Positions 5,777-24,267 of a stretch of 25,967 nucleotides of DNA are shown here, piece after piece. How positions within the stretch are numbered: position 1 is the stretch's first letter; the number at the start of each line of letters is the position of its first letter. The notes beneath the pieces were generated by a model, which was not told the DNA's origin, did not search any database, and worked only from the letters and a program-made list of their open reading frames with translations. Position numbers and translations under genes: made by a program. Location of the stretch: the IMG/VR virus record IMGVR_UViG_3300031371_000013, positions 1-25,967 of that record; one strand, given 5' to 3'. Origin of the DNA: a virus.

Positions 5777-6106
5777 ATGACTAAATATTTAAATGATTTA
5801 TCAAGATTTATTTCTGATAGAAAAATTACAGAAGAAGAATTTTTATCCAATGATGAACGTCGGTTGTTTAGATCTTTGAAATCAATGGGTGAACGTGCAA
5901 CAAAGGGTCGAGATATTGATAGGTATATTTTTGAAGTTGTATATAAGGGAGGGCGTTCAACATTGAGAATGATTCTAGAGGGTAGACATTCTATGTCTAT
6001 TGGGAATCATGTTGCAAAGCGGTTTCGGGATATGGACGAACTCGAGTTCGTTGATGTTATCAAGACTAAAAATGGGGCTAAGGTTGTTCTGAGACCGGTA
6101 AAATAG
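5777..6106 (+). CDS. Unknown 109-aa basic protein
   Basis: Short protein rich in Arg and Lys. An N-terminal helical part (KYLNDLSRFISDRKITEEEF) is followed by strands (IFEVVYKGG, RSTLRMILEG) and a C-terminal VIKTKNGAKVVLRPVK hairpin. No family recognised. AAGGA lies 9 bases before the ATG after a 56-base spacer, one of the larger gaps in this strand run, so a new transcript could begin here. Its 3' part carries one of three copies of a 14-bp palindrome (6037-6050), where it encodes Glu-Leu-Glu-Phe-Val. The next gene starts 9 bases after its stop. Confidence 0.7.
   Translation: MTKYLNDLSRFISDRKITEEEFLSNDERRLFRSLKSMGERATKGRDIDRYIFEVVYKGGRSTLRMILEGRHSMSIGNHVAKRFRDMDELEFVDVIKTKNGAKVVLRPVK
6037..6050. 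repeat. 14-bp palindrome CGAACTCGAGTTCG, copy 1 (inside a gene)
   Basis: Perfect inverted repeat located in the coding sequence of the 109-aa gene. The 12-bp core GAACTCGAGTTC, followed by GTT, recurs at 10725-10736 and 16741-16754 in intergenic positions. As RNA it could fold as a 5-bp stem with a UCGA tetraloop. Confidence 0.85.
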
Positions 6107-7801: not shown

Positions 7802-8164
7802 TCAAGAGAACCACAATGATTTCCAAGTATCTTCAAGTGTTCTGTTGATTTCTAAGATATCTGATGGCTTTTCAATAACTGGAATATCAGATAGAATATC
7901 AGATAGATGGTTTTTTACAGTTGAATTTCCAGTGTGAACTACAACAGGTATATTGGATTCCTGTATTATCTTCATGCCGTCATTTTCATTGGGACAATCC
8001 CAGTCTGTTAGAACAATGTCAAAATTTCCGCTTTCTATGGCTTTAAGACCATCATTCGCATTGTGTCTAACTTCTATGGTATTCCAGTATCTTTTCAATG
8101 CCCGAGATAGCATGCGGGATACTTCGATATCATCATCTATAATTAATAAATTTAGGCTTTTCAT
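7802..8164 (-). CDS. Stand-alone response regulator receiver domain (CheY-like)
   Basis: The 120 aa form a full receiver domain with nothing attached. The acidic pocket Asp10-Asp11-Asp12, the phosphoacceptor Asp54 (in DIVLTDWDCP), the switch Thr78 (VVVHTG) and Lys99 (VIEKP) are all present, so it should be phosphorylatable. As in CheY or Spo0F, it would work by protein contact, since there is no DNA-binding or enzymatic output domain. No histidine kinase is nearby, so a host kinase would have to supply phosphate, or the protein could divert phosphate from a host pathway (inference). It is the last gene of the leftward island and starts in the stop of its neighbour (ATGA at 8161-8164). The partner and pathway are unknown. 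Confidence 0.92.
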   Translation of the reverse strand: MKSLNLLIIDDDIEVSRMLSRALKRYWNTIEVRHNANDGLKAIESGNFDIVLTDWDCPNENDGMKIIQESNIPVVVHTGNSTVKNHLSDILSDIPVIEKPSDILEINRTLEDTWKSLWFS

Positions 8165-8406
8165 TCTTCTTCATCATCATCTTTCAGTTTGGCGTTTAGT
8201 AGCATGGCCATTCTTCCGATTGAGATTGCTTTTCTGATATTGAAGAGGTTTTCTTGGGCATCTGCTTCTTGTTGTTCTAGATATTCAAGTTGTTCTTTTC
8301 TTGTTGGAATGAGGGAATGACCTATAATTTTGAGTCGATATTCCTTGGGATCTGTTAGGAGGAATTTGCATAATTCTTCCATTTGTGGGTTATCGAAACG
8401 TACCAT
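8161..8406 (-). CDS. Unknown 81-aa coiled-coil protein
   Basis: The start at 8406 is chosen because AAAGGA lies about 7 bases upstream, while the longer frame would need a TTG at 8433 without a ribosome site. The start of the protein (MVRFDNPQMEELCKFLLTDPKEYRLKI) is followed by a Glu/Gln-rich helix (EQLEYLEQQEADAQENLFNIRKAI, about residues 38-61) likely to form a coiled coil, and an acidic tail of Asp/Glu. No family recognised. Its stop overlaps the receiver gene start, so the two are translationally coupled, and a joint function is possible but not shown. Confidence 0.7.
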   Translation of the reverse strand: MVRFDNPQMEELCKFLLTDPKEYRLKIIGHSLIPTRKEQLEYLEQQEADAQENLFNIRKAISIGRMAMLLNAKLKDDDEEE

Positions 8407-8410
8407 TTTT

Positions 8411-8611
8411 TTATCCTTTCTGTGTTTCCACAAAATATATTGATAGGTTTATGATGTCATCGTAAGAATAACCATCAATTCCAATCCAATATTCTATTTC
8501 ATGTTCTGCATAGGCTAGGCATTGACCCCAGTTTGGATCCATTTGAGCATCTTTAATGGATAAAGATGATTTTGGGATCTTATTAGAAGTCTTTGCAGGT
8601 TTTTTTGTCAT
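8411..8611 (-). CDS. Unknown small protein; start uncertain
   Basis: The open frame extends upstream to an ATG at 8683 (90 aa), but that longer version would overlap the 44-aa basic-protein gene in another frame for about 100 bases. Starting at 8611 gives 66 aa and an overlap of 29 bases. Neither ATG has a good Shine-Dalgarno sequence. The conserved-looking part is the C-terminal half (DPNWGQCLAYAEHEIEYWIGIDGYSYDDIINLS), probably a small helical domain with several aromatic residues. No family recognised. Its stop codon lies in the ribosome site of the next gene, which indicates an operon. Confidence 0.55.
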   Translation of the reverse strand: MTKKPAKTSNKIPKSSLSIKDAQMDPNWGQCLAYAEHEIEYWIGIDGYSYDDIINLSIYFVETQKG

Positions 8612-8717
8612 TTTTGCGTCGTATCTTTTTGGATGATTTCTTGGCTTCAGATCTTGTGGTCCATCTACCACCACCTGTTCCATTCATTTCCGTTTTTGTT
8701 TTTCGCCAGTATCCCAT
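8583..8717 (-). CDS. 44-aa basic protein with GGGRW motif
   Basis: This small gene is easily missed. ATG at 8717, four or five bases after an AGGT that overlaps the stop of the upstream gene, TAA at 8583-8585. The product has an N-terminal MGYWRKTK, then GTGGGRWTTRSEAKKSSKK and a highly basic end (IRRKNDKK). The sequence Gly-Gly-Gly-Arg-aromatic, followed by an RxEAKKxSKKxRRKNDKK-like helix, is to my memory typical of small conserved basic proteins in T4-like phages; no function is known to me. High charge suggests nucleic acid binding. The frame overlaps the 5' part of the next gene. Confidence 0.6.
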   Translation of the reverse strand: MGYWRKTKTEMNGTGGGRWTTRSEAKKSSKKIRRKNDKKTCKDF

Positions 8718-8723
8718 TTTTAC

Positions 8724-8936
8724 CTACCATGCGACATAGATGGGTTTGTTGCAGCCTTCACAATTTTCTTTATTTGATTTGATAAGATGGCTATTCATTA
8801 TCCAAACTGGAGATCCTTCTCGGTTGTTTTTTATGCAACATTCTGGGCAATAGAGATATCCGAATTTATCAACTAAGCCCGTTATAGTGTTGTTTTTATC
8901 GTTTTTTTGATAAAGCTGTATTTGGGATGCTTTCAT
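8724..8936 (-). CDS. Small zinc-ribbon protein, unknown role
   Basis: The 70 aa contain two Cys-x2-Cys knuckles (Cys30/Cys33 in YCPEC and Cys59/Cys62 in CEGC), spaced as in a zinc ribbon; Cys34 and His50 are also available. The N-terminal part (MKASQIQLYQKND) is polar. Such small ribbons are frequent in large phage genomes and may bind nucleic acid or protein; nothing more specific is visible. The ATG has AGAGG 6 bases upstream. The gene ends 6 bases before the start of the 44-aa gene, and its TAG forms part of that gene's ribosome site. It is part of the leftward island. Confidence 0.7.
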   Translation of the reverse strand: MKASQIQLYQKNDKNNTITGLVDKFGYLYCPECCIKNNREGSPVWIMNSHLIKSNKENCEGCNKPIYVAW

Positions 8937-8948
8937 TTTATACCTCTT

Positions 8949-9185
8949 TTAAATATGAAATTTAGAGTTTAACCATTGATCGAATTTTTTGTGTTGTTCT
9001 TTGCTCCATCCGTGTTTTGGGATCTCATTTGTTTTCATTGACCATTCAGATCTGATATCAGAAATCCAAACTATAAACCCTGACATTTTACCTCCAGGAT
9101 ATTTATGTGCGTCAATTTCAAGTTGTTTTTCTGGAGTATTGTTATTTGATTTTGCATAGGCTATGTATCTGGATTGATATTTCAT
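8949..9185 (-). CDS. Unknown 78-aa protein
   Basis: Small, Lys- and Trp-containing protein (MKYQSRYIAYAKSNNNTPEKQLEIDAHKYPGG at the start; EWSMKTNEIPKHGWSKEQHKKFDQWLNSKF at the end). No Cys clusters, no membrane segment, no family recognised. The start is one base after the TAA of the upstream gene, and a GGA-type ribosome site lies inside that gene's end. It is the second gene of the leftward island after the promoter region. Confidence 0.65.
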   Translation of the reverse strand: MKYQSRYIAYAKSNNNTPEKQLEIDAHKYPGGKMSGFIVWISDIRSEWSMKTNEIPKHGWSKEQHKKFDQWLNSKFHI

Positions 9186-9186
9186 T

Positions 9187-9393
9187 TTATTTGTCCATTC
9201 CTTGTATTACTACATTCATATTTTGGGACAAAAAATGATTCAGAGTTGAAACAAGAATGGTTTTTTTAACATTTACAGATTGGGTCCCTATTCCATAACA
9301 ATATTCAAATTTATCTCTTCCCATATTTGTTGATGGATACATTTTGAAAAAATGATTATGAGTATTTATTTCAATTGTTATATCTCTAGGCAT
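9187..9393 (-). CDS. Unknown 68-aa protein, first gene of the leftward island
   Basis: ATG at 9393 is preferred over the frame-opening ATG at 9423 because AAAGGA lies about 10 bases before it, the same arrangement as in the 81-aa gene of this island. The product starts MPRDITIEINTHNHFFKMYPS and has the look of a small alpha/beta protein with a strand (KKTILVST) and a C-terminal strand (MNVVIQGMDK). No family recognised. A TTGACA box in the divergent spacer, 17 bases from a poor -10 box, could drive this gene and the whole island. Confidence 0.65.
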   Translation of the reverse strand: MPRDITIEINTHNHFFKMYPSTNMGRDKFEYCYGIGTQSVNVKKTILVSTLNHFLSQNMNVVIQGMDK

Positions 9394-9438
9394 TTTGTTT
9401 TTATCCTTTCGTCGAAATCTCATCGACTATCTATATGA

Positions 9439-9525: not shown

Positions 9526-9559
9526 TACTCAAGAAACTGATGTTTTGAAAGGTTTTTAT

Positions 9560-9748
9560 ATGCCAAGGTTGAATGTTGAGATTAAAGATGGAGTGTACAA
9601 GAGGTTTTTAAATCAATGTGCTGAAGATGGGAGAAGTGTTTCAGATGTAATAAGGGAATTGATATTGGATTATACAGAAAGAAGAGTTAGGGAGAAATAT
9701 AAGTTGTTAAAAATAGAAGAGAGTGGAGAGATAGAAAATGTCAAATGA
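9560..9748 (+). CDS. Ribbon-helix-helix DNA-binding protein
   Basis: The 62-aa product fits the Arc/MetJ/CopG fold: a short basic strand (PRLNVEI, residues 2-8) that would form the intermolecular ribbon, a helix (about 10-23, DGVYKRFLNQCAED), a turn with Gly-Arg-Ser, and a second helix (about 27-40, VSDVIRELILDYTE), then a basic extension. Such proteins act as dimers or tetramers on direct or inverted repeats. The start at 9560 is chosen because GAAAGG lies 7 bases upstream; the alternative TTG at 9545 overlaps that site. It is the first gene of the rightward tail operon and overlaps the next gene by 11 bases. It may autoregulate through the repeats before it, or control a late operon. Confidence 0.85.
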   Translation: MPRLNVEIKDGVYKRFLNQCAEDGRSVSDVIRELILDYTERRVREKYKLLKIEESGEIENVK

Positions 9749-10541
9749 AGAAGAAAAAATTGTGTTGGATAAGACAAAGGGTAACGTATTAGATGTTTAT
9801 CCTGGTTGCATGGCTGTTGAGTTGCCAGCTGGGTATATATACGATGGAGAACTTCATATTAATGCTATACTTAGGGAGATGAAGGGACCAGAAGAAGAGT
9901 TATTGGCAACTCGAGGACCTATTGTAACTAGGCTAAATAGAATAATTGGTAACTGTTTGGTCCAGCTTGGTTCTATATCTGATAAGAATATATTAAGAAA
10001 AGCAGCTTGTGAGTTTATAGCACAAGACAGAATGGCCATATTTTTAACTCTAAGACGTGTTTCACTTGGTGATTTTTATGACTGTGATGTTATATGTCCA
10101 AGTTGTAATACAAGACAGCATGTTACAATTAATCTATCTGAAATAGACATATCACCAATGCCGAACAGGATGGAACGTGATATTACCAGTGAGTTGACAA
10201 GTGGAAAAATAATCAAATGGCATGTTATCAGTGTTGATGACGAGGAATGGCTTACAAGACAGAGAAAAAAAGAAAAAGATAGTAATTTGATGACATTGAA
10301 TCTAATGTCTAGGATCTATTCTATAGATGGAAATAATTTAGATAGAAAAAACAAATATAAAGAAAGTCTTGGGATGCTAATGGATCTTTCATTGAGGGAT
10401 AGAACTGAGCTTAGGACATTGTTTGATAAAAAAGAGGAAAATATTGATACCAATGTGGAATTTGAATGTGAGAGATGTTCTCACCAATGGGAAAGTAAGC
10501 TGGATATTCAGCCAAGTTTTTTCTTCCCATCGGCCAAATAG
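9738..10541 (+). CDS. T4 gp26-like baseplate/assembly protein with zinc ribbon (short form)
   Basis: The 267-aa product matches the T4 base plate protein family that includes gp26. It has an N-terminal LPAGYIYDGELHINAILREMKGPEEELLA segment, a central helical part with Asp-Arg-aliphatic and FLTLRRVSLGDFYD segments, and two Cys pairs (Cys120/Cys123 and Cys244/Cys247) that should bind zinc. A GGAGAG site precedes the ATG, inside the previous gene. Position directly before the tape measure gene, plus a -1 frameshift signal six codons before the stop, gives the G/GT tail-assembly chaperone layout, with this as the short form. The family call rests on remembered sequence patterns; the chaperone role rests on position and the frameshift. 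Confidence 0.8.
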   Translation: MSNEEEKIVLDKTKGNVLDVYPGCMAVELPAGYIYDGELHINAILREMKGPEEELLATRGPIVTRLNRIIGNCLVQLGSISDKNILRKAACEFIAQDRMAIFLTLRRVSLGDFYDCDVICPSCNTRQHVTINLSEIDISPMPNRMERDITSELTSGKIIKWHVISVDDEEWLTRQRKKEKDSNLMTLNLMSRIYSIDGNNLDRKNKYKESLGMLMDLSLRDRTELRTLFDKKEENIDTNVEFECERCSHQWESKLDIQPSFFFPSAK

Positions 10542-10600
10542 GTGTCCTTGAGGAAGAGATTTATTATTTGATGGAAAAACAAGGGCAATCCTATTGGGCC
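10517..10600 (+). promoter_or_regulatory. Programmed -1 ribosomal frameshift signal
   Basis: The heptamer T TTT TTC (10517-10523) is in the correct phase of the gp26-like gene (codons agt ttt ttc). Eight bases later a stem begins: GGCCAAATAGG (10532-10542) can pair with CCTATTGGGCC (10590-10600), 10 of 11 positions matching, around a 47-base loop that could support a pseudoknot. Slippery sequence, spacer and stem are in the standard -1 geometry. After slipping, reading continues to the TAG at 10721-10723. Confidence 0.85.
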
Positions 10601-10723
10601 ATAATGGATATTCCATATTCTAGGCGTAAAAGGTTAGTTGATAAAAAATATGTACAAGATAGATCGCAGGCAAATGTTCAAAAAAATATTGGTTTTAATG
10701 CAAGACCAAGAAAAAATAGATAG
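10523..10723 (+). CDS. -1 frame extension of the gp26-like protein (long form C-terminus)
   Basis: From base 10523 the -1 frame is open for 66 codons with no in-frame start near its beginning and no independent ribosome site; after frameshifting it adds 66 residues to the first 262 of the gp26-like protein, giving 328 aa. The extension has a helix (VLEEEIYYLMEKQGQ), a turn, an IMDIPYSRRKRLVDKK segment and a basic tail. It resembles C-terminal chaperone segments (Lxxx(M/L)P...R...) seen after tail chaperone frameshifts in other phages, as far as I recall. The long form would carry the tape-measure-binding end, as lambda gpGT does (inference). It ends 30 bases before the tape measure ATG. Confidence 0.75.
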   Translation, partial: LPIGQIGVLEEEIYYLMEKQGQSYWAIMDIPYSRRKRLVDKKYVQDRSQANVQKNIGFNARPRKNR

Positions 10724-10724
10724 T

Positions 10725-10736
10725 GAACTCGAGTTC
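10725..10736. repeat. 12-bp palindrome GAACTCGAGTTC, copy 2 (intergenic)
   Basis: Begins one base after the TAG of the frameshift frame and ends eight bases before the ribosome site of the tape measure gene. Shares its core and following GTT with copies at 6037-6050 and 16741-16754. As RNA it forms a 4-bp stem with a UCGA loop followed by G and five U, so a mini-terminator or mRNA-processing hairpin is possible. Confidence 0.8.
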
Positions 10737-10753: not shown

Positions 10754-13705
10754 ATGTTTCTCGGAATGGGTTTTGAATTATCTGCTATCGATAACGGAAT
10801 GTCTAAAATGTTCGAAAAAATGGCAGATACCTATAAGAACATGGTAGATTCAATGGCCAAAAAAAGTGAAAAATGGGCTTTAGGAACTGGCCACATGATA
10901 GGGAGAGTCATAATACAGTATAAAAGACTTGAACCTACATTGTTATCAATAAAAGGTGTTTCAAAATCTGTTTTTTCTGGGATGATAACTGGTTTTAATG
11001 CTGTCGTAAGTGGAATAGGAATGGGTGTTTCTGCAATTGGTGGATCTTTTAAGAAATTATATGATGGAACCAAGAAAACATTTAGAAAAATGTCAGATAT
11101 TGCTATGAAATTTAATGTTGCCGACATAGCATCACAAATGAGAGGTTTGACCGGAGAAACTGGAGATCTTACTAATAGTTTAGAAGCTACAATGGTCGGA
11201 ATGATGCAATCCACAAAGCCAATTGCTGCATCATTAAATTTATCATCAAAAGAGATGGCAAAGTTTTCTAGCCAAGCTGCTGGTATGGCATATGGTATGA
11301 ATACGTCTGCTGATGCTGTTGCCGAAACAATGAGATCTATATTTATTGCAAACAAAGGTGCAAAAGAAGCAATGGAATCATTGAGTATGTCTACTAAGGA
11401 TTGGGTTAAAATTGTTCAGACTACTAATGTTCCAATGTCTGAATTTACTGCAATTCTTGGTGATATGACGACTAGTTGGCAGGCTTCTCCAAAAGAAGCA
11501 GCTAAAATGTTAGATAATCTGGTAGCTATTGGTAAGGCTGCTGGAACTGGAACTGGAGCATTGAAAAATGCAAAAGTTCAATTGGATGAGCTTGGGGAAC
11601 TGTTTAAGACATTACCACCAAGTATGGCAAGATCGTCCGATGAGATAATTAAGTTAATGGAATCTTCAGCTAGGATGTCTGGTGTATTCAGGGAAATGGG
11701 GGATACTCAAGAAGAGGCCATAACAAAGGCAAATACCGTTGCTAGAATGTTTGCTGAGCAGGATGTTGAAATACAAAAGGCATTAAGTATAGGAAATAAC
11801 AAAGCATTAATGGATAATCCTTTGCTTAAATATTTGATGCGTCTTGGGGTTGGATTTGATGAAGCGAGAAATATAATTTCTATTGGTAGTAGAGATACTG
11901 TTGCTGGAATGAAAAAAATAAACGATATTTATACTCGTTTTGGTGATGATGTTTCACCTCAGGTTCAGAGGGCATTGTCTGATTTGAGTGGAGCACTTGG
12001 GGAAGGGGCAGCTGGATTATCATACCTGGCAGCGAATACTATTCAAGGGTCAAATGCGTTGAATAAGATGGCAAATCTAGCCATAAAGGGGAGCGGATCT
12101 TTGAGGCAATTTGGAAAAGATGCCTATAGTTCTGGATTGACACTTCAGGAAACATATGATCGTGCTAAATTATCATTTGATACAACCATACGAAGTATTG
12201 CCAGGGGTGATGTTAGGGGAATTGTTAAAAAGCAAATAAGAGGTATGCGAGAAGCTGGTAAGGAGATAAAAGCCCTTGGATCAGATGAGACATGGGGACC
12301 ATGGGTTAATGCACTGTCTAGATTTAAGCAAATGGGAATAGGGGGTATATTTTCTTCTATTGCTGAGTCTACAGGAGTTGGTGTTGAGAACGCTTCAAAA
12401 TTTGGAGCTAAGGCAGGTTTGGTTTTTGATACTGTTAAACAATTTGGATCTGAGTTAGCACCGCTTATGCAGTTATTTGGAATGACAGGTCCATTGGGAC
12501 CGTTGATTGCTGCAGGTGGTATTGGATCATTGTTTGCATTGGATGATACTTCTGCAAAGGATATTCTTGGTCCATTCTATGATATGTTTTCTAATTTTAA
12601 GAAAATGGTAAATGGTTTATGGGATGATTTTTCTGATAAATTTATTGATGTGTGGGATAAAAAAATATCACCTAAATTGATGAGTTTTTGGGATAAAGCA
12701 ATAATTCCATTTATGGAGGATTATGTTCCTAAAATAGGCCAAATATTTTTAGATGGTTTAAAATGGGCTTGGGATGAATTTTGGAAGACTGATGTAGAAA
12801 AAGCTCTTGATATGGCTGAAAAGATTAGGCGGGGAGAGATTAATGTTTCTGATTTGAGTAAAAGGGATATTGAAAAAATAACATCTAAAAATAAAAGTGT
12901 TATAAAAGAACAAGAAGGGGCATTAGGATTAATACAAAATATGGGGATGATGTCTGCTGGTCCATTTGCGGCTGGTGCTGCATGGGCATCGGCACCGAAA
13001 ACAACTAGTACAATTAAAAAGATAAAACAATCACAGCAATCCATTGATTCATCATTAGGAATGGATTGGGTTAATTGGGATACTGAACCTGTTACGAGAG
13101 GTGGAGAAACTACAGCGAATGCTTTTGTTGATGGAGTGACAAGTACACTTGATAATTCAAAAGAAAAAATAGATGAATCATTCGGGTATGCTGCTGAAGG
13201 TGGAATGTCAAGATCTCCAATAAAAAGCGGTCCACTGTCTGGAGAGGGTGAGAATAATGCTGTTTATCGTGGTGGATATTGGACAATGGAACAATTCGCT
13301 CTTGGTGTTACGTCTAGTACAGAAATGATTAGAAGTGCAGTTGATTCAGCGTTGAATGAATCAGTGATAATGACAATAGATGAATATGCTACCAAGATGA
13401 GAGATCTTGCCGAACAAAAAACATTTTTAGCTTCTGTTGCCAAATCTATAATAAGAGATCTTGGTATGGATATAGAGACGACAGTAGATTCTAATGCAGA
13501 TGTAAATGTTAAGAAAAATTTAGAGGCAGCATTGAGTGTTCCTGGTCTTGCAAGTGTTGTTTTGGCTGTTTCGAATGAAGGAGCACAAACAAGAAAACTT
13601 CTAAAAAGAATATTAGATGAAAATGTAAAGCAAACTTCAATTATGAGTAGTAAATCCGTTTCTGGAAATACAGGATTGGTTACAACTGCTCCACCACCTA
13701 GTTGA
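10754..13705 (+). CDS. Tape measure protein
   Basis: This 983-aa protein sits directly after the frameshifted chaperone gene and before the baseplate genes, the standard place for a tape measure. It is long, mostly helical and rich in Ala, Met, Lys and Gly. Residues about 120-480 contain tape-measure-like segments (EMAKFSSQAAGMAYGMNTS, TKDWVKIVQTTNVPMSEF). A hydrophobic Gly-rich stretch follows near 575-590 (MTGPLGPLIAAGGIGSLFA), then a Trp-rich amphipathic region (about 620-680, WDDFSDKFIDVWDK ... WAWDEFWK). By the usual 0.15 nm per residue rule the tail would be about 147 nm. The start at 10754 uses GAGG five bases upstream; the GTG at 10748 overlaps that site. It overlaps no functional enzyme motif. 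Confidence 0.88.
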   Translation: MFLGMGFELSAIDNGMSKMFEKMADTYKNMVDSMAKKSEKWALGTGHMIGRVIIQYKRLEPTLLSIKGVSKSVFSGMITGFNAVVSGIGMGVSAIGGSFKKLYDGTKKTFRKMSDIAMKFNVADIASQMRGLTGETGDLTNSLEATMVGMMQSTKPIAASLNLSSKEMAKFSSQAAGMAYGMNTSADAVAETMRSIFIANKGAKEAMESLSMSTKDWVKIVQTTNVPMSEFTAILGDMTTSWQASPKEAAKMLDNLVAIGKAAGTGTGALKNAKVQLDELGELFKTLPPSMARSSDEIIKLMESSARMSGVFREMGDTQEEAITKANTVARMFAEQDVEIQKALSIGNNKALMDNPLLKYLMRLGVGFDEARNIISIGSRDTVAGMKKINDIYTRFGDDVSPQVQRALSDLSGALGEGAAGLSYLAANTIQGSNALNKMANLAIKGSGSLRQFGKDAYSSGLTLQETYDRAKLSFDTTIRSIARGDVRGIVKKQIRGMREAGKEIKALGSDETWGPWVNALSRFKQMGIGGIFSSIAESTGVGVENASKFGAKAGLVFDTVKQFGSELAPLMQLFGMTGPLGPLIAAGGIGSLFALDDTSAKDILGPFYDMFSNFKKMVNGLWDDFSDKFIDVWDKKISPKLMSFWDKAIIPFMEDYVPKIGQIFLDGLKWAWDEFWKTDVEKALDMAEKIRRGEINVSDLSKRDIEKITSKNKSVIKEQEGALGLIQNMGMMSAGPFAAGAAWASAPKTTSTIKKIKQSQQSIDSSLGMDWVNWDTEPVTRGGETTANAFVDGVTSTLDNSKEKIDESFGYAAEGGMSRSPIKSGPLSGEGENNAVYRGGYWTMEQFALGVTSSTEMIRSAVDSALNESVIMTIDEYATKMRDLAEQKTFLASVAKSIIRDLGMDIETTVDSNADVNVKKNLEAALSVPGLASVVLAVSNEGAQTRKLLKRILDENVKQTSIMSSKSVSGNTGLVTTAPPPS

Positions 13706-16740: not shown

Positions 16741-16754
16741 CGAACTCGAGTTCG
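16741..16754. repeat. 14-bp palindrome CGAACTCGAGTTCG, copy 3 (intergenic)
   Basis: Starts at the base after the stop codon of the proline-rich gene (TAA 16738-16740) and is followed by TTT and the GGAG ribosome site of the gp25-like gene. Same core as copies at 6037-6050 and 10725-10736. Confidence 0.85.
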
Positions 16755-19379: not shown

Positions 19380-22300
19380 ATGTCAGATAGTATTAGATTC
19401 AATTGGCCTATACCATCATGGAATGCTGATTGGCAATCTTGGCAAGACAAATTTGAGGATCTTATTCTGGATATAGAATCAACCTCTTTTTCAAATATGG
19501 AATCATTGAAATGTATATTCAATCAGATTCCTAATGCAAGAGTATATGATGATTCTGGAACTAAAAAATTAGAGTTATCTTCAGATTTGATTTTAGTATC
19601 TAGAACTAACAATATGAAGGTGACAGTAGATTCAACAACTGATTTGGAATTGATTCCATATCATTTTGTTGGATTGACTTTTCCATCTGGAACAAATGAA
19701 GAGGTAACCGTTGAATTTGAATTGTTTAATACTGCTGATATGGATCCAGATGTTCAAATATTTGGATATATAACAGATGTATATTCAATAAATTGGTTCA
19801 ATGGGTCTGTTTTTGCGGATGGTGATTCATCTAGACCATTATTTTCGTTTGATATATCAGGGTTGTCCAGTTCGGATCGTGTTCGTGTATCAGCAGCAGA
19901 TACAACAGCTGGATATTTAAGTAGTAAAGTTACAAACGGAAGTGGTGTAACATTAACTATTATAAATCCTGGTGCAAATGAACAGCTTCAGATAGATGCT
20001 GGAGGATATTGGGATAGAACTGCTGGAACTCCTGGCTATCTCGATCCAATAACTGCAACAGATACTATTAGGATTGGAGATGGTACAGTTAGTCAACCAG
20101 CAATTGCATCTCAAACATATCCTAATACAGGAATAAAATGGTCAGCAACTGATAATATTGATTTTGTTTGTGATGGTAATGAAGTTTTGACTGTATATTT
20201 GGAAGGTGTATTAGAACAAAGGATTTCGTTTACTGATGATGCATCTTATTATACTGGAGTAATAATAAAGGAGCAAAATACGGCTGGTCCACCATCTGTA
20301 TTGAATTTGATTAGTAGAGCTGGAGCCTTACCTTCTGGTTCTCAGTTATACGTACATTCAATAACTAATAATAACCAATCATCGTTGGTTGAAGTAGAGA
20401 GTTATGCTGGAGGTGGTGGAAATGCAACAGCAACTTTGAAATCAGATTCAGGATCTGGTACTCCAGCTTCTTCCATGACACAAGTGTTAGCAAGTGGAGA
20501 AGATAGTGTTGATTGTCTTATTAGGTCAGAAAATACATCAACAAATGATTCTACAGTGACAATTTCTGCTGATGGTGGTGGAGAATCAAATATATATATT
20601 ACATCAGATGGATCTTCTGGTTCATATGCTGAATTGGGTGGAGATGCAACTACGGGAGAGTCCGCTTCGACTATATATGCTGTTTCACCAGATGATGCTA
20701 CTAATGTTTCTATTTTATCTCATTCAGGTGGAGGTGGTGGTGGAATAAATGCTACTATTAATATATCAGCAATAAATGATGGTGCTGGATATGATAGTGC
20801 AGCTATAACAATTAAGAGCACATCAGCTGCTGGATATGCTGTTGTTGTAATTGGTGATCAGACTACAGAAGATGTCATTCTTTCTGTTTTTGATAGTGTT
20901 ATTTTTAGGTTTGATAATGTTGATAAATTGAATGTATCGCATAGTGGAGATACACTTTTATTTGATACTTATAATCCTGATGATGATCTATCAATATGGG
21001 AGTTTAACCATTCTAAGTATGCTGGAACAAGCGAAGCTGCTATAGAATTCAATGTTCTCGGTTCTACTGGTACATCTGGTAGTAGATTTACGGTTGATTC
21101 TAGTAGTGCAGCAAGTGGTAATTCATCATATATTCAATTGCAAAGTAATGGGTATTTACCTGTTGTTGATATAAATTCAGTATCTCCTGTTCAGGGAGAT
21201 GTAACAGAAATTAATATTTATTCTGCAACAGATGATACAGCAACTATAAATATTAAATCTGAATCAACATCTACTGGTGATGCGATTGTAAATATAATAT
21301 CTGATAGTACTGGAGCTGATGCTTATGTAAATATAGCTGCTGAAGGTAGTACAAGTGGTTTAGTTCTGGTGGGTTCATCTTCAACAGAGCAAATTGCATT
21401 TACCGATGATAATTCATCTGCTATTTCTGGGTCTTGGACAAATCCATATATACCGTGGTCAACTTCTGCAGCACAATGGACAACATATAATAGTAATTTT
21501 GGTGAGAGACCATTACTTGATACATTGAATTTTATATATGCATCTGGAGGAGGCGGAGGAGTTGTTGAGCCAGCTGGTCAGGTCGTTTATGGGACTGGAG
21601 CAGGTGTTGCTTCTGGGGATCAATTTGTTTGGGATACTGTGACTGAAACGCTAATTATTGGGGATAATGGTACATTATATGCTAATGTGCCTGGTGATTC
21701 AAAGTTAGAGGTTCAGAACGGTATATCATCGATAATGTGGTCAGCTGATAATGAGCCACCCGTTCTATCATTGCATAAAAGTTTAAATGCTACAGTTGGA
21801 ACACATGGGGCTGTAAATAATAATACAATTTTAGGAGAGATTGATTTTTATGGATCGTATGGGTCTGGGTGGAGAGAGGGATCCAAAATTGTATGTATTG
21901 CAAGAGAAATATTTACATCTGGTCATTGTGGAAGTGAATTAAGGTTTTATACTACTACCATTGGAACCTTGGTTCCTGCTATTGCAATGATAGTACAGGA
22001 TAATGGATATATATCCGTATCAAATAGTTCGAGTATTTCTGCAACTGCAATGGTAGAAGTTTTTGGAAATGGTGATAGAACATATGATAATACATTAGGA
22101 ATATCATATTTTGATAGTTCAGCATCTGCTCAGCCTAACATAAGGATTAGAAAGAGTGCTAATAATACAATTGGAAGCCATACAGCTGTATCAAGTGGTG
22201 ATGCACTTGGTAAAGTATCCTTTGAGGCATCGGATGGATCAGCTTATGGAAGTGCCGTAGAGCTTAGAGCTGTTGCATCTGATACATGGAATGGCTCATC

Positions 22301-23363
22301 GTATGGTGGAACTTTCCAAATATGGCAAACTCAAGTTGGAGAGACTACTGCGGGTAAAACGGTAACTGTATACAAGGGAACTGAAGCTTTTACTCCATCA
22401 AGTGGATATTCTTCTGTTTATATGAATTTTGGTGATGACGCAGACCATGAATCATTAATACTTAGGGCTAATAATATTATTGTATTCCAAGATGCAAATA
22501 CAGTTAGTAGCTCATATATGGGTGGATCATTAGTAATAGGAAGTAGTAATGATTTTAGTAGTTCATATATGTCTGATTCAATAGTTATTGGAGATTCAAA
22601 TACATTCTCATATTGTTCAAATATGTTTTATCGTGGAAATTCAAATGATTTATCATATGTTCAGAATTCGGTTGTTTTTGCAGATTCAACAGATCCAGAC
22701 AATATAAATAGGTCTATAATTGCTGTTGATAATTCTAATATAATAAATTGTAATAATTCATTGATATTGGGAGATACAAATACTTGTCAGTCAACCAGTA
22801 ATACAATAATGCTTGGTCTTGAGTGTTATAATGACGGATATGTAGCTACAATCGTTCGTGGAAATAGGGCAAAAGCAGATTTTCATTACGGTGAATTTAT
22901 TACTGCTGGAAGACTGGATGGATCTACTACGGGTAGTTCACAGATTTTCAAGGGTGTTCCACTTATGTATAGAACTACTGATACAACACCAACCGTTCTT
23001 ACGTCAAACGGTAGTGGTACTGTTTCTCCATTGAATATCGAAGAAGGGTATTTATATAGTTTTTCGGTTAGGCTTACCGGTTCTCTTGAAGGTGATGGTA
23101 TAGATGATGAGTGGGAAACTTGGATATGGGATGTTGAAGTATGGAGAAATTCTGTTAATGGAATAAATCATCATATTAACGCACGGTATAACTATGGGTC
23201 AGGTGGTTCTGGTAACATAGGTACTGCAAGCTGGGTTGATAATGATACCGATCATACTTTAGAGCTAGAAGTACAGGCAGTGGCAAATACAATAAAAGTT
23301 GATTGGTATGCTCATATGTGGGGTGGAGTTAAAATTCAAACATTATATGATGAGGTATCATAG
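19380..23363 (+). CDS. Very large tail fibre/receptor-binding-type protein with LbR beta-roll
   Basis: Protein of 1327 aa, very rich in Ser, Gly, Thr and Asn. The N-terminus (MSDSIRFNWPIPSWNADWQSWQDKFEDLILDIE) looks like an attachment domain. From about 219-275 a tail-fibre repeat is seen (DTIRIGDGTVSQPAIASQTYPNTGIKWSATDNIDF). Residues 335-680 are many short strands suggesting a trimeric beta-solenoid. Residues about 1035-1160 contain the NS.V.GSSN..S..NSIVIG rhythm of left-handed beta-rolls, as in YadA/Hia heads. The C-terminal 180 residues (VPLMYRTTDTTPTVLT...) look like a globular receptor-binding tip. It follows the baseplate genes and precedes a glycosyltransferase, and is likely the main adhesin; a baseplate skirt protein is the alternative. 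Confidence 0.82.
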   Translation: MSDSIRFNWPIPSWNADWQSWQDKFEDLILDIESTSFSNMESLKCIFNQIPNARVYDDSGTKKLELSSDLILVSRTNNMKVTVDSTTDLELIPYHFVGLTFPSGTNEEVTVEFELFNTADMDPDVQIFGYITDVYSINWFNGSVFADGDSSRPLFSFDISGLSSSDRVRVSAADTTAGYLSSKVTNGSGVTLTIINPGANEQLQIDAGGYWDRTAGTPGYLDPITATDTIRIGDGTVSQPAIASQTYPNTGIKWSATDNIDFVCDGNEVLTVYLEGVLEQRISFTDDASYYTGVIIKEQNTAGPPSVLNLISRAGALPSGSQLYVHSITNNNQSSLVEVESYAGGGGNATATLKSDSGSGTPASSMTQVLASGEDSVDCLIRSENTSTNDSTVTISADGGGESNIYITSDGSSGSYAELGGDATTGESASTIYAVSPDDATNVSILSHSGGGGGGINATINISAINDGAGYDSAAITIKSTSAAGYAVVVIGDQTTEDVILSVFDSVIFRFDNVDKLNVSHSGDTLLFDTYNPDDDLSIWEFNHSKYAGTSEAAIEFNVLGSTGTSGSRFTVDSSSAASGNSSYIQLQSNGYLPVVDINSVSPVQGDVTEINIYSATDDTATINIKSESTSTGDAIVNIISDSTGADAYVNIAAEGSTSGLVLVGSSSTEQIAFTDDNSSAISGSWTNPYIPWSTSAAQWTTYNSNFGERPLLDTLNFIYASGGGGGVVEPAGQVVYGTGAGVASGDQFVWDTVTETLIIGDNGTLYANVPGDSKLEVQNGISSIMWSADNEPPVLSLHKSLNATVGTHGAVNNNTILGEIDFYGSYGSGWREGSKIVCIAREIFTSGHCGSELRFYTTTIGTLVPAIAMIVQDNGYISVSNSSSISATAMVEVFGNGDRTYDNTLGISYFDSSASAQPNIRIRKSANNTIGSHTAVSSGDALGKVSFEASDGSAYGSAVELRAVASDTWNGSSYGGTFQIWQTQVGETTAGKTVTVYKGTEAFTPSSGYSSVYMNFGDDADHESLILRANNIIVFQDANTVSSSYMGGSLVIGSSNDFSSSYMSDSIVIGDSNTFSYCSNMFYRGNSNDLSYVQNSVVFADSTDPDNINRSIIAVDNSNIINCNNSLILGDTNTCQSTSNTIMLGLECYNDGYVATIVRGNRAKADFHYGEFITAGRLDGSTTGSSQIFKGVPLMYRTTDTTPTVLTSNGSGTVSPLNIEEGYLYSFSVRLTGSLEGDGIDDEWETWIWDVEVWRNSVNGINHHINARYNYGSGGSGNIGTASWVDNDTDHTLELEVQAVANTIKVDWYAHMWGGVKIQTLYDEVS

Positions 23364-23391: not shown

Positions 23392-24267
23392 TTGAAAGTT
23401 TATTATATAAATTTGGACAGGTCTACTGATAGACGTGATGCTATGGAGTCGTCATTTAAGAATGAAGATTTGATTCGTATTTCTGGTGTAGATGGTTTGG
23501 AGTGGGCGATTGATGGACAAGTTGATTCAAATGGATTCTGTGTATGGGATAATGATTATAGGAAAGATTTTATAAAAAGTGGTTTATTATCACAAGATAG
23601 TCTTTTGCCACCAACACATGTAGCTTGTAATATTAGTCATAGAAATGCTATTGAGGCATTCTTAAAAACAAAAGATGATTGGTCTATTATATTGGAAGAT
23701 GATGTTGAACCAAATGGTGTATTACTTAAAAAAGGTGGAAGAATAGAAGATCATTTGTTTATTCCTAAAGATGCTGATTTTTATTATTTGTGTGGAACAA
23801 GACCAGACAGGAGATTAGATGTTTACAGAGATGGTCAGGTAAGAAAAGTCAGAACATTGATGGGATATTGCCTTTCTAGAAAGGCAGCGGATTTGTTTTT
23901 GAAATCAACTGTACCAATGTTGTGGTTGTCTGATTTTCAGTTTCCGATTTGTTGTTTTGATAGCATGTCTAGATGTTGTGGACATGGAATAACCAGGGAT
24001 AGAAAAATTCGTTGGGGTGAACGCATATGGGATTATTACTCAAATGATACGAGAATAGAAACGAAGATATTATCATATTCGATTCCGAATCGTGATTCTT
24101 TTAAGGAAATAGGGTTATCATTAAAAGATGAAATGAAAATTGATAAAAAAATAAAAGGCTATTCTGATAAAAGAGTTGGATTAATAAAGCATTCAAAGTT
24201 TTCAAAGGATTCATTGTTGAATCATATTGATGCATATGAAAAGATGAAGGCAGAGAGCCGGATTTAA
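23392..24267 (+). CDS. Family 25 glycosyltransferase
   Basis: The 291-aa product has the GT25 signature: N-terminal YYINLDRSTDRRDAME (residues 4-19), ISHRNAIEAF (81-90), and WSIILEDDVEP (98-108) with the acidic EDDVE likely to bind metal and nucleotide sugar, plus MGYCLSRKAADLFL (about 162-175) in the C-terminal half. GT25 enzymes typically transfer galactose or related sugars in LPS synthesis. Here it follows the large Ser/Thr/Asn-rich fibre by 28 bases, so it might glycosylate virion fibres or modify host polysaccharide against superinfection; both are inference. It starts with TTG (no in-frame ATG usable upstream) but has a perfect AGGAGG five bases before it. Confidence 0.9.
   Translation: MKVYYINLDRSTDRRDAMESSFKNEDLIRISGVDGLEWAIDGQVDSNGFCVWDNDYRKDFIKSGLLSQDSLLPPTHVACNISHRNAIEAFLKTKDDWSIILEDDVEPNGVLLKKGGRIEDHLFIPKDADFYYLCGTRPDRRLDVYRDGQVRKVRTLMGYCLSRKAADLFLKSTVPMLWLSDFQFPICCFDSMSRCCGHGITRDRKIRWGERIWDYYSNDTRIETKILSYSIPNRDSFKEIGLSLKDEMKIDKKIKGYSDKRVGLIKHSKFSKDSLLNHIDAYEKMKAESRI

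Follow-up and report, generated by a model that had tools for sequence, protein, structure and literature searches.

The gp26-like locus and its extension

The window, by which we mean the whole stretch of 25,967 bases that was analysed, is an AT-rich record of an uncultivated virus and carries a contractile-tail module (sheath, PF17482). Within it lies a gene whose product matches the T4 gp26 family PF12322 (E=1.3e-16), with a score of 61.4 bits against a curated cut-off of 24.5, as well as PHROG 150, annotated 'baseplate hub' (E=2.4e-18). The protein carries two CxxC pairs, at residues 120-123 and 244-247. A second gp26-like copy was not noticed among the ORFs of the window, which is a partial genome.

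Near its end this gene harbours an in-phase slippery heptamer, T_TTT_TTC, and the stop codon of the 0 frame (TAG, 10539-10541) is the sixth codon past it (Table 1). From the heptamer onwards the -1 frame, which begins CTT CCC ATC, is open for 66 codons; both the position of the heptamer and the length of this open frame are as the earlier note had given them. Joining the two frames gives a predicted fused product of 262 + 66 = 328 aa. The extension, for which we found no match among the Pfam and PHROG families, is predicted to form a helical hairpin (pLDDT 70).

The next gene downstream is the probable tape-measure gene. Its match to the PHROG 28 tape measure family is weak (E=0.007), and its position and length also point to this assignment; we took ATG 10754 as its start, while the mechanical ORF list has GTG 10748 (listed ORF 985 aa). 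The equivalent gene is clearly annotated as the tape measure in SP-15, LIS04 and immuto. In LIS04 the gp26-like homologue is found immediately 5' of the annotated tape-measure gene, and in SP-15 and immuto just one small extension ORF separates the two.

Table 1. Coordinates of the chaperone locus and its neighbour in the window
Feature	Position	Strand	Remarks
gp26-like gene, short chaperone (TAC-N)	9738..10541	+	267 aa
Slippery heptamer T_TTT_TTC, putative -1 shift site	10517..10523	+	in phase
-1 frame extension (TAC-C)	10523..10723	+	66 codons + TAG 10721-10723
Bulged stem-loop, probable stimulator	10532..10600	+	10532-10550 with 10580-10600, 8 nt past the heptamer
Probable tape-measure gene	10754..13705	+	PHROG 28, position, length

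Conservation of the -1 frame in close relatives

The window holds 33 in-phase heptamers of the form XXXYYYZ, so that the heptamer by itself is weak evidence. The combination of a heptamer within an overlap and a -1 frame running past the stop was found in one of the 23 genes examined, the gp26-like gene. Using this gene as a query we retrieved an identical contig (L002) and three relatives at 69% identity, all of which have the heptamer and the extension; a scan of prokaryote genomes gave no relative. A search with a profile of the extension yielded 18 loci representing 11 distinct lineages, the window's own counted, and the heptamer and the -1 frame are kept in every one of them (18/18 loci, 11/11 lineages). 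The site is T_TTT_TTC throughout this family except for one T_TTT_TTT. Comparing relatives for stops in the -1 frame, a changed heptamer or an own start of the extension, as the earlier note had proposed, gave nothing that spoke against a programmed frameshift. On this comparative evidence the pairing of T_TTT_TTC with a -1 extension is not due to chance.

The pattern of substitutions points in the same direction. Among 64 codon columns upstream, the third base never varies in just 3, each of them within the slippery site; in one of these the encoded amino acid is S, G or A while the third base is always T. The extensions of the window and of its relative L003 share 65% amino acid identity over 68 columns (including FF). 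Past the 0-frame stop, 32, 25 and 43% of the differences fall at positions 1, 2 and 3 of the -1 frame, and in the overlap, where -1 position 3 is the 0-frame position 2, the figures are 23, 24 and 53%. The -1 frame is thus under protein selection, and this begins directly past the heptamer.

The extension could also be a separate small gene with its own start, translated by coupled termination and re-initiation and never fused to the gp26-like protein. Many records do annotate a separate small gene here, the ATG of slurp01 overlaps the stop as TAATG, and an ATG stands at extension codon 16 in all 11 lineages of the window's family. However, the positions of such starts vary by lineage: PA5oct has no NTG codon anywhere in its extension frame, and in several lineages the conserved beginning of the extension has no NTG codon before it. 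In the window the first NTG is extension codon 15 counting from 0 (the sixteenth codon), a position within the first helix predicted for the extension. Coding selection that is already visible just past the slippery site, and a codon before the two phenylalanines whose third base is fixed as T while its amino acid varies, also argue against an own start, and we regard this explanation as very unlikely.

That a single continuous fused gene was split by an assembly or sequencing error, or by decay, is scarcely credible. A homopolymer does sit at the site, but contig L002, identical yet independent, has the same break, as do isolate genomes and a further 10 distinct lineages of the family. A homopolymer-error artefact was rejected because independent genomes carry this break.

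A stem downstream of the heptamer

The earlier note had described an 11-bp stem with one mismatch beginning 8 bases after the heptamer. This stem is real (10532-10542 with 10590-10600, 91% complementary), but it is longer than was claimed: 8 further inner pairs join TGTCCTTG (10543-10550) to CAAGGGCA (10580-10587), so that the stem has 18 pairs in all, interrupted by one mismatch and a bulge of two bases. The folding energy of the downstream region is low in both the window (z -2.97) and L003 (z -3.07). Between these two, one pair of the stem has changed on both strands, from C-G to U-A (GGCC/GGCC to GGTC/GACC), and the mismatch has also been repaired.

A stem conserved across the family was considered and rejected, since this one is common to the window and L003 only and is absent from the nine other distinct relatives. 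The structure is therefore lineage-specific; what stays constant is the slippery site. Among more distant members, strong downstream structure was found in S-SSM7 (z -5.6), Atu_ph07 (-6.6) and Phosso (-3.9), among others that have no significant one. A search of Rfam gave no match at gathering scores.

Structure and apparent internal duplication of the gp26-like protein

We modelled the gp26-like protein with AlphaFold (pLDDT 71.5) and aligned the model to 328 chains. The best three were 2ob9 (Z 5.2), 3klu (Z 4.5) and 3fgx (Z 4.5), all of them tail assembly chaperones (PMC9603447); these scores are low, and the next chain after the three chaperones reached Z 2.6. HK97 gp13 (2ob9) aligned to residues 145-233, and YqbN (3klu) and Rbstp2171 (3fgx) both aligned in the N-terminal half. 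Foldseek gave E=1, and a search of solved structures by sequence returned weak unrelated matches only. The earlier note had treated the gp26 family as an alternative to lambda G; with chaperones as its top structural matches, the gp26 family is better seen as being itself the short chaperone.

A profile of the N-terminal half of the protein matches one of the C-terminal half (probability 97%, E=9e-12), and each half terminates in a CxxC pair, both pairs being lost in the relative L029. The match between the halves suggests that the gp26-like protein arose by tandem duplication of a single chaperone fold, with a metal site common to both copies.

The -1 arrangement in distant relatives

The same arrangement was found in 19 phages and contigs, with the window and L003 counted in: slurp01, Vibrio 2.275, RaK2, Munch, XbC2, GAP32, Phosso, Atu_ph07, PA5oct, XacN1, SCTP-2, RAS14, S-SSM7, RL2RES and five others. 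Their sites comprise 16 T_TTT_TTC, two T_TTT_TTT and one T_TTT_TTG. Across the group the amino acid preceding Phe-Phe varies, yet its codon always ends in T; from the synonymous usage of each gene, the product of the frequencies of such T-ending codons is 1.7e-6, a figure for which the rows are not independent.

Cyanophage-type contigs provide a second sample. Of 80 such contigs, all 79 that include the gene end have an in-phase TTTTTTC. In 78 of 78 usable contigs (74 distinct extensions) the extension is 50 codons or longer; the 79th is outside the usable set as its sequence ends before any extension stop.

Extensions in the +1 frame

Seven relatives (SP-15, LIS04, GXN1, BRock, L009, Mel-JY01 and immuto) carry their extension in the +1 frame, where it likewise overlaps the Phe codons. 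With the Mel-JY01/immuto extension as a query we retrieved 80 contigs (L144-L223) with 64 distinct extensions, and all 80 have TTT YTT TGG C at the site, in none of them preceded by a T. The arrangement resembles that of RF2, the waiting codon being one for Trp. The RF2 site CUU_UGA is close to the YUU_UGG of these members, and the influenza PA-X site UCC_UUU_CGU (PMC3498833) is close to the UUU_C of others, in both cases as a resemblance only; RF2 and PA-X are +1 sites, whereas that of the window is -1. We infer the +1 direction, and the exact codon of the slip, from the sequences. A -2 shift is disfavoured in SP-15, GXN1, BRock and L009 because re-pairing two bases upstream would, as read from their sequences, create mismatches.

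The two kinds of extension appear to be homologous: those of L008, L029 and L031 match those of SP-15 and LIS04 in hhalign with a probability of 95% (E=4.7e-8, 67 columns), the other pairs between the two groups being mostly weak. A tree of the shared part needs three changes, as drawn, to account for the three states (-1, +1 and two genes), with limited support in its mixed part. We consider it likely that the direction of recoding has switched at a homologous Phe-Phe site, between -1 at T_TTT_TTC and +1 at UUU_C or YUU_UGG, and that the T4 group arrived at gene duplication instead.

These sites also bear on the possibility that RNA polymerase slips on the T-run, so that a mixed pool of mRNA supplies the other frame. 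Runs of six or seven T are present at many sites, although they are short for polymerase slippage, and GXN1 and BRock have just TTT followed by C and still keep the extension. The fixed T preceding TTT TTC in all -1 members is a better fit to tandem tRNA slippage. We judge polymerase slippage to be very unlikely, marginally more so than a separately started gene.

One relative in the set, Slicko01 (L026), has an extension-like +1 frame at about 2180-2360 without a recognisable slippery site, and is the sole exception.

The two-gene arrangement of T4

Both T4 gp26 and T4 gp51 belong to PF12322 (215.6 and 177.5 bits). T4 gp26 terminates in EFFELL, without an extension, and the C-terminal segment of gp51 matches the cyanophage extension (hhalign probability 76%, E=2e-5); the small -1 ORF of S-SSM7 carries the annotation 'gp51'. 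In the tree the gp26/gp51 pair of the T4 group forms one group (94/88), nested in a supported group (99/99) that also holds S-SSM7 and RL2RES. The earlier note was right that T4 does not obviously use the frameshift device: T4 seems to rely on a pair of genes, 26 for the short form and 51 for a paralogue with the extension fused. Unlike the window, T4 has two separate genes of the same family and no frameshift. Its two proteins have been called hub assembly chaperones (PMC3004832).

Proposed short and long chaperones from one gene

We consider it highly probable that the tail assembly chaperones of this uncultivated, contractile-tailed phage are encoded here, and that programmed -1 frameshifting yields a short (TAC-N) and a long (TAC-NC) form. 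The comparative evidence supports the earlier note, which first proposed that a gp26-like chaperone gene preceding the tape measure undergoes programmed -1 frameshifting. In the mechanism we propose, most ribosomes would read the gp26-like gene to its stop and produce TAC-N. A minority would slip back one base on the heptamer, assisted by the stem-loop, and produce TAC-NC, which would carry the small helical hairpin as an additional C-terminal part. On the model of lambda gpG/gpGT, the short form in many copies and the long form in few would then coat the tape-measure protein and bring in subunits of the tail tube. We infer the slippage, its frequency and the roles of the two proteins.

Lambda likewise has a short and a -1 frameshifted long chaperone 5' of its tape measure, but library scans gave no sequence match between gpG/gpGT and the window, and in size the gp26-like protein is roughly double, apparently as a tandem duplication with CxxC pairs. 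In Bacillus phage 0305phi8-36 a two-gene form, gp143/gp144, replaces the frameshift (PMC2147016), a likeness drawn from its description. According to a 2016 review, long-tailed phages conserve the G-T frameshift, 'except T4' (PMC5009743).

The recoding device occurs in many T4 relatives, in both directions and beside the two-gene solution of T4. Vladimirov, Gautam and Davidson (2022, Virology 566:9-15) are said to have described tail assembly chaperones of T4-like phages made either by frameshifting or from two genes, and their abstract reportedly names T4 genes 26 and 51. Papers citing that work mention a short chaperone gene beside a long, fused one in some T4-like phages (PMC10885494) and poly-T slippery sites in T4-like phages (PMC12846349). 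As conveyed by these papers, a gp26-family short form is accompanied by a poly-T frameshifted long form in several groups and the two-gene form is that of the T4 group; the lineage of the window, unlike those T4-like phages, is an uncultivated one without a close relationship to T4. The device of the window is thus of an already published type, and the core finding is known in kind; the combination of frameshift and gp26 family, which the earlier note found interesting, is not new. The switch between -1 and +1 and the internal duplication may be new: we found no description of +1 lineages or of the duplication in the literature, in which Vladimirov et al. (2022) is represented through the papers that cite it.

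With -1, +1 and two-gene states side by side, the history of the recoding site becomes traceable and testable. In most annotations the long chaperone is absent or split, and none of the public records examined joins the two frames.

Other elements of the window

Directly 5' of the chaperone gene, and overlapping it, is a small ribbon-helix-helix protein (ParG/CopG-like, 9545-9748). Further upstream a run of small ORFs on the minus strand (7802-9423) opposes the direction of the tail module, and one of these ORFs encodes a response-regulator receiver domain (PF00072, E=5e-9). At 23392-24267, after a long ORF (19380-23363), we found a glycosyltransferase family 25 protein (PF01755, E=3e-9).

The window contains three copies (6038-6049, 10725-10736 and 16742-16753) of a perfect 12-bp palindrome, GAACTCGAGTTC, where 0.02 are expected. 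Two of the copies are intergenic, just 5' of ribosome-binding sites, and one is intragenic; those at 6038-6049 and 10725-10736 are also kept in the relatives L003-L005.
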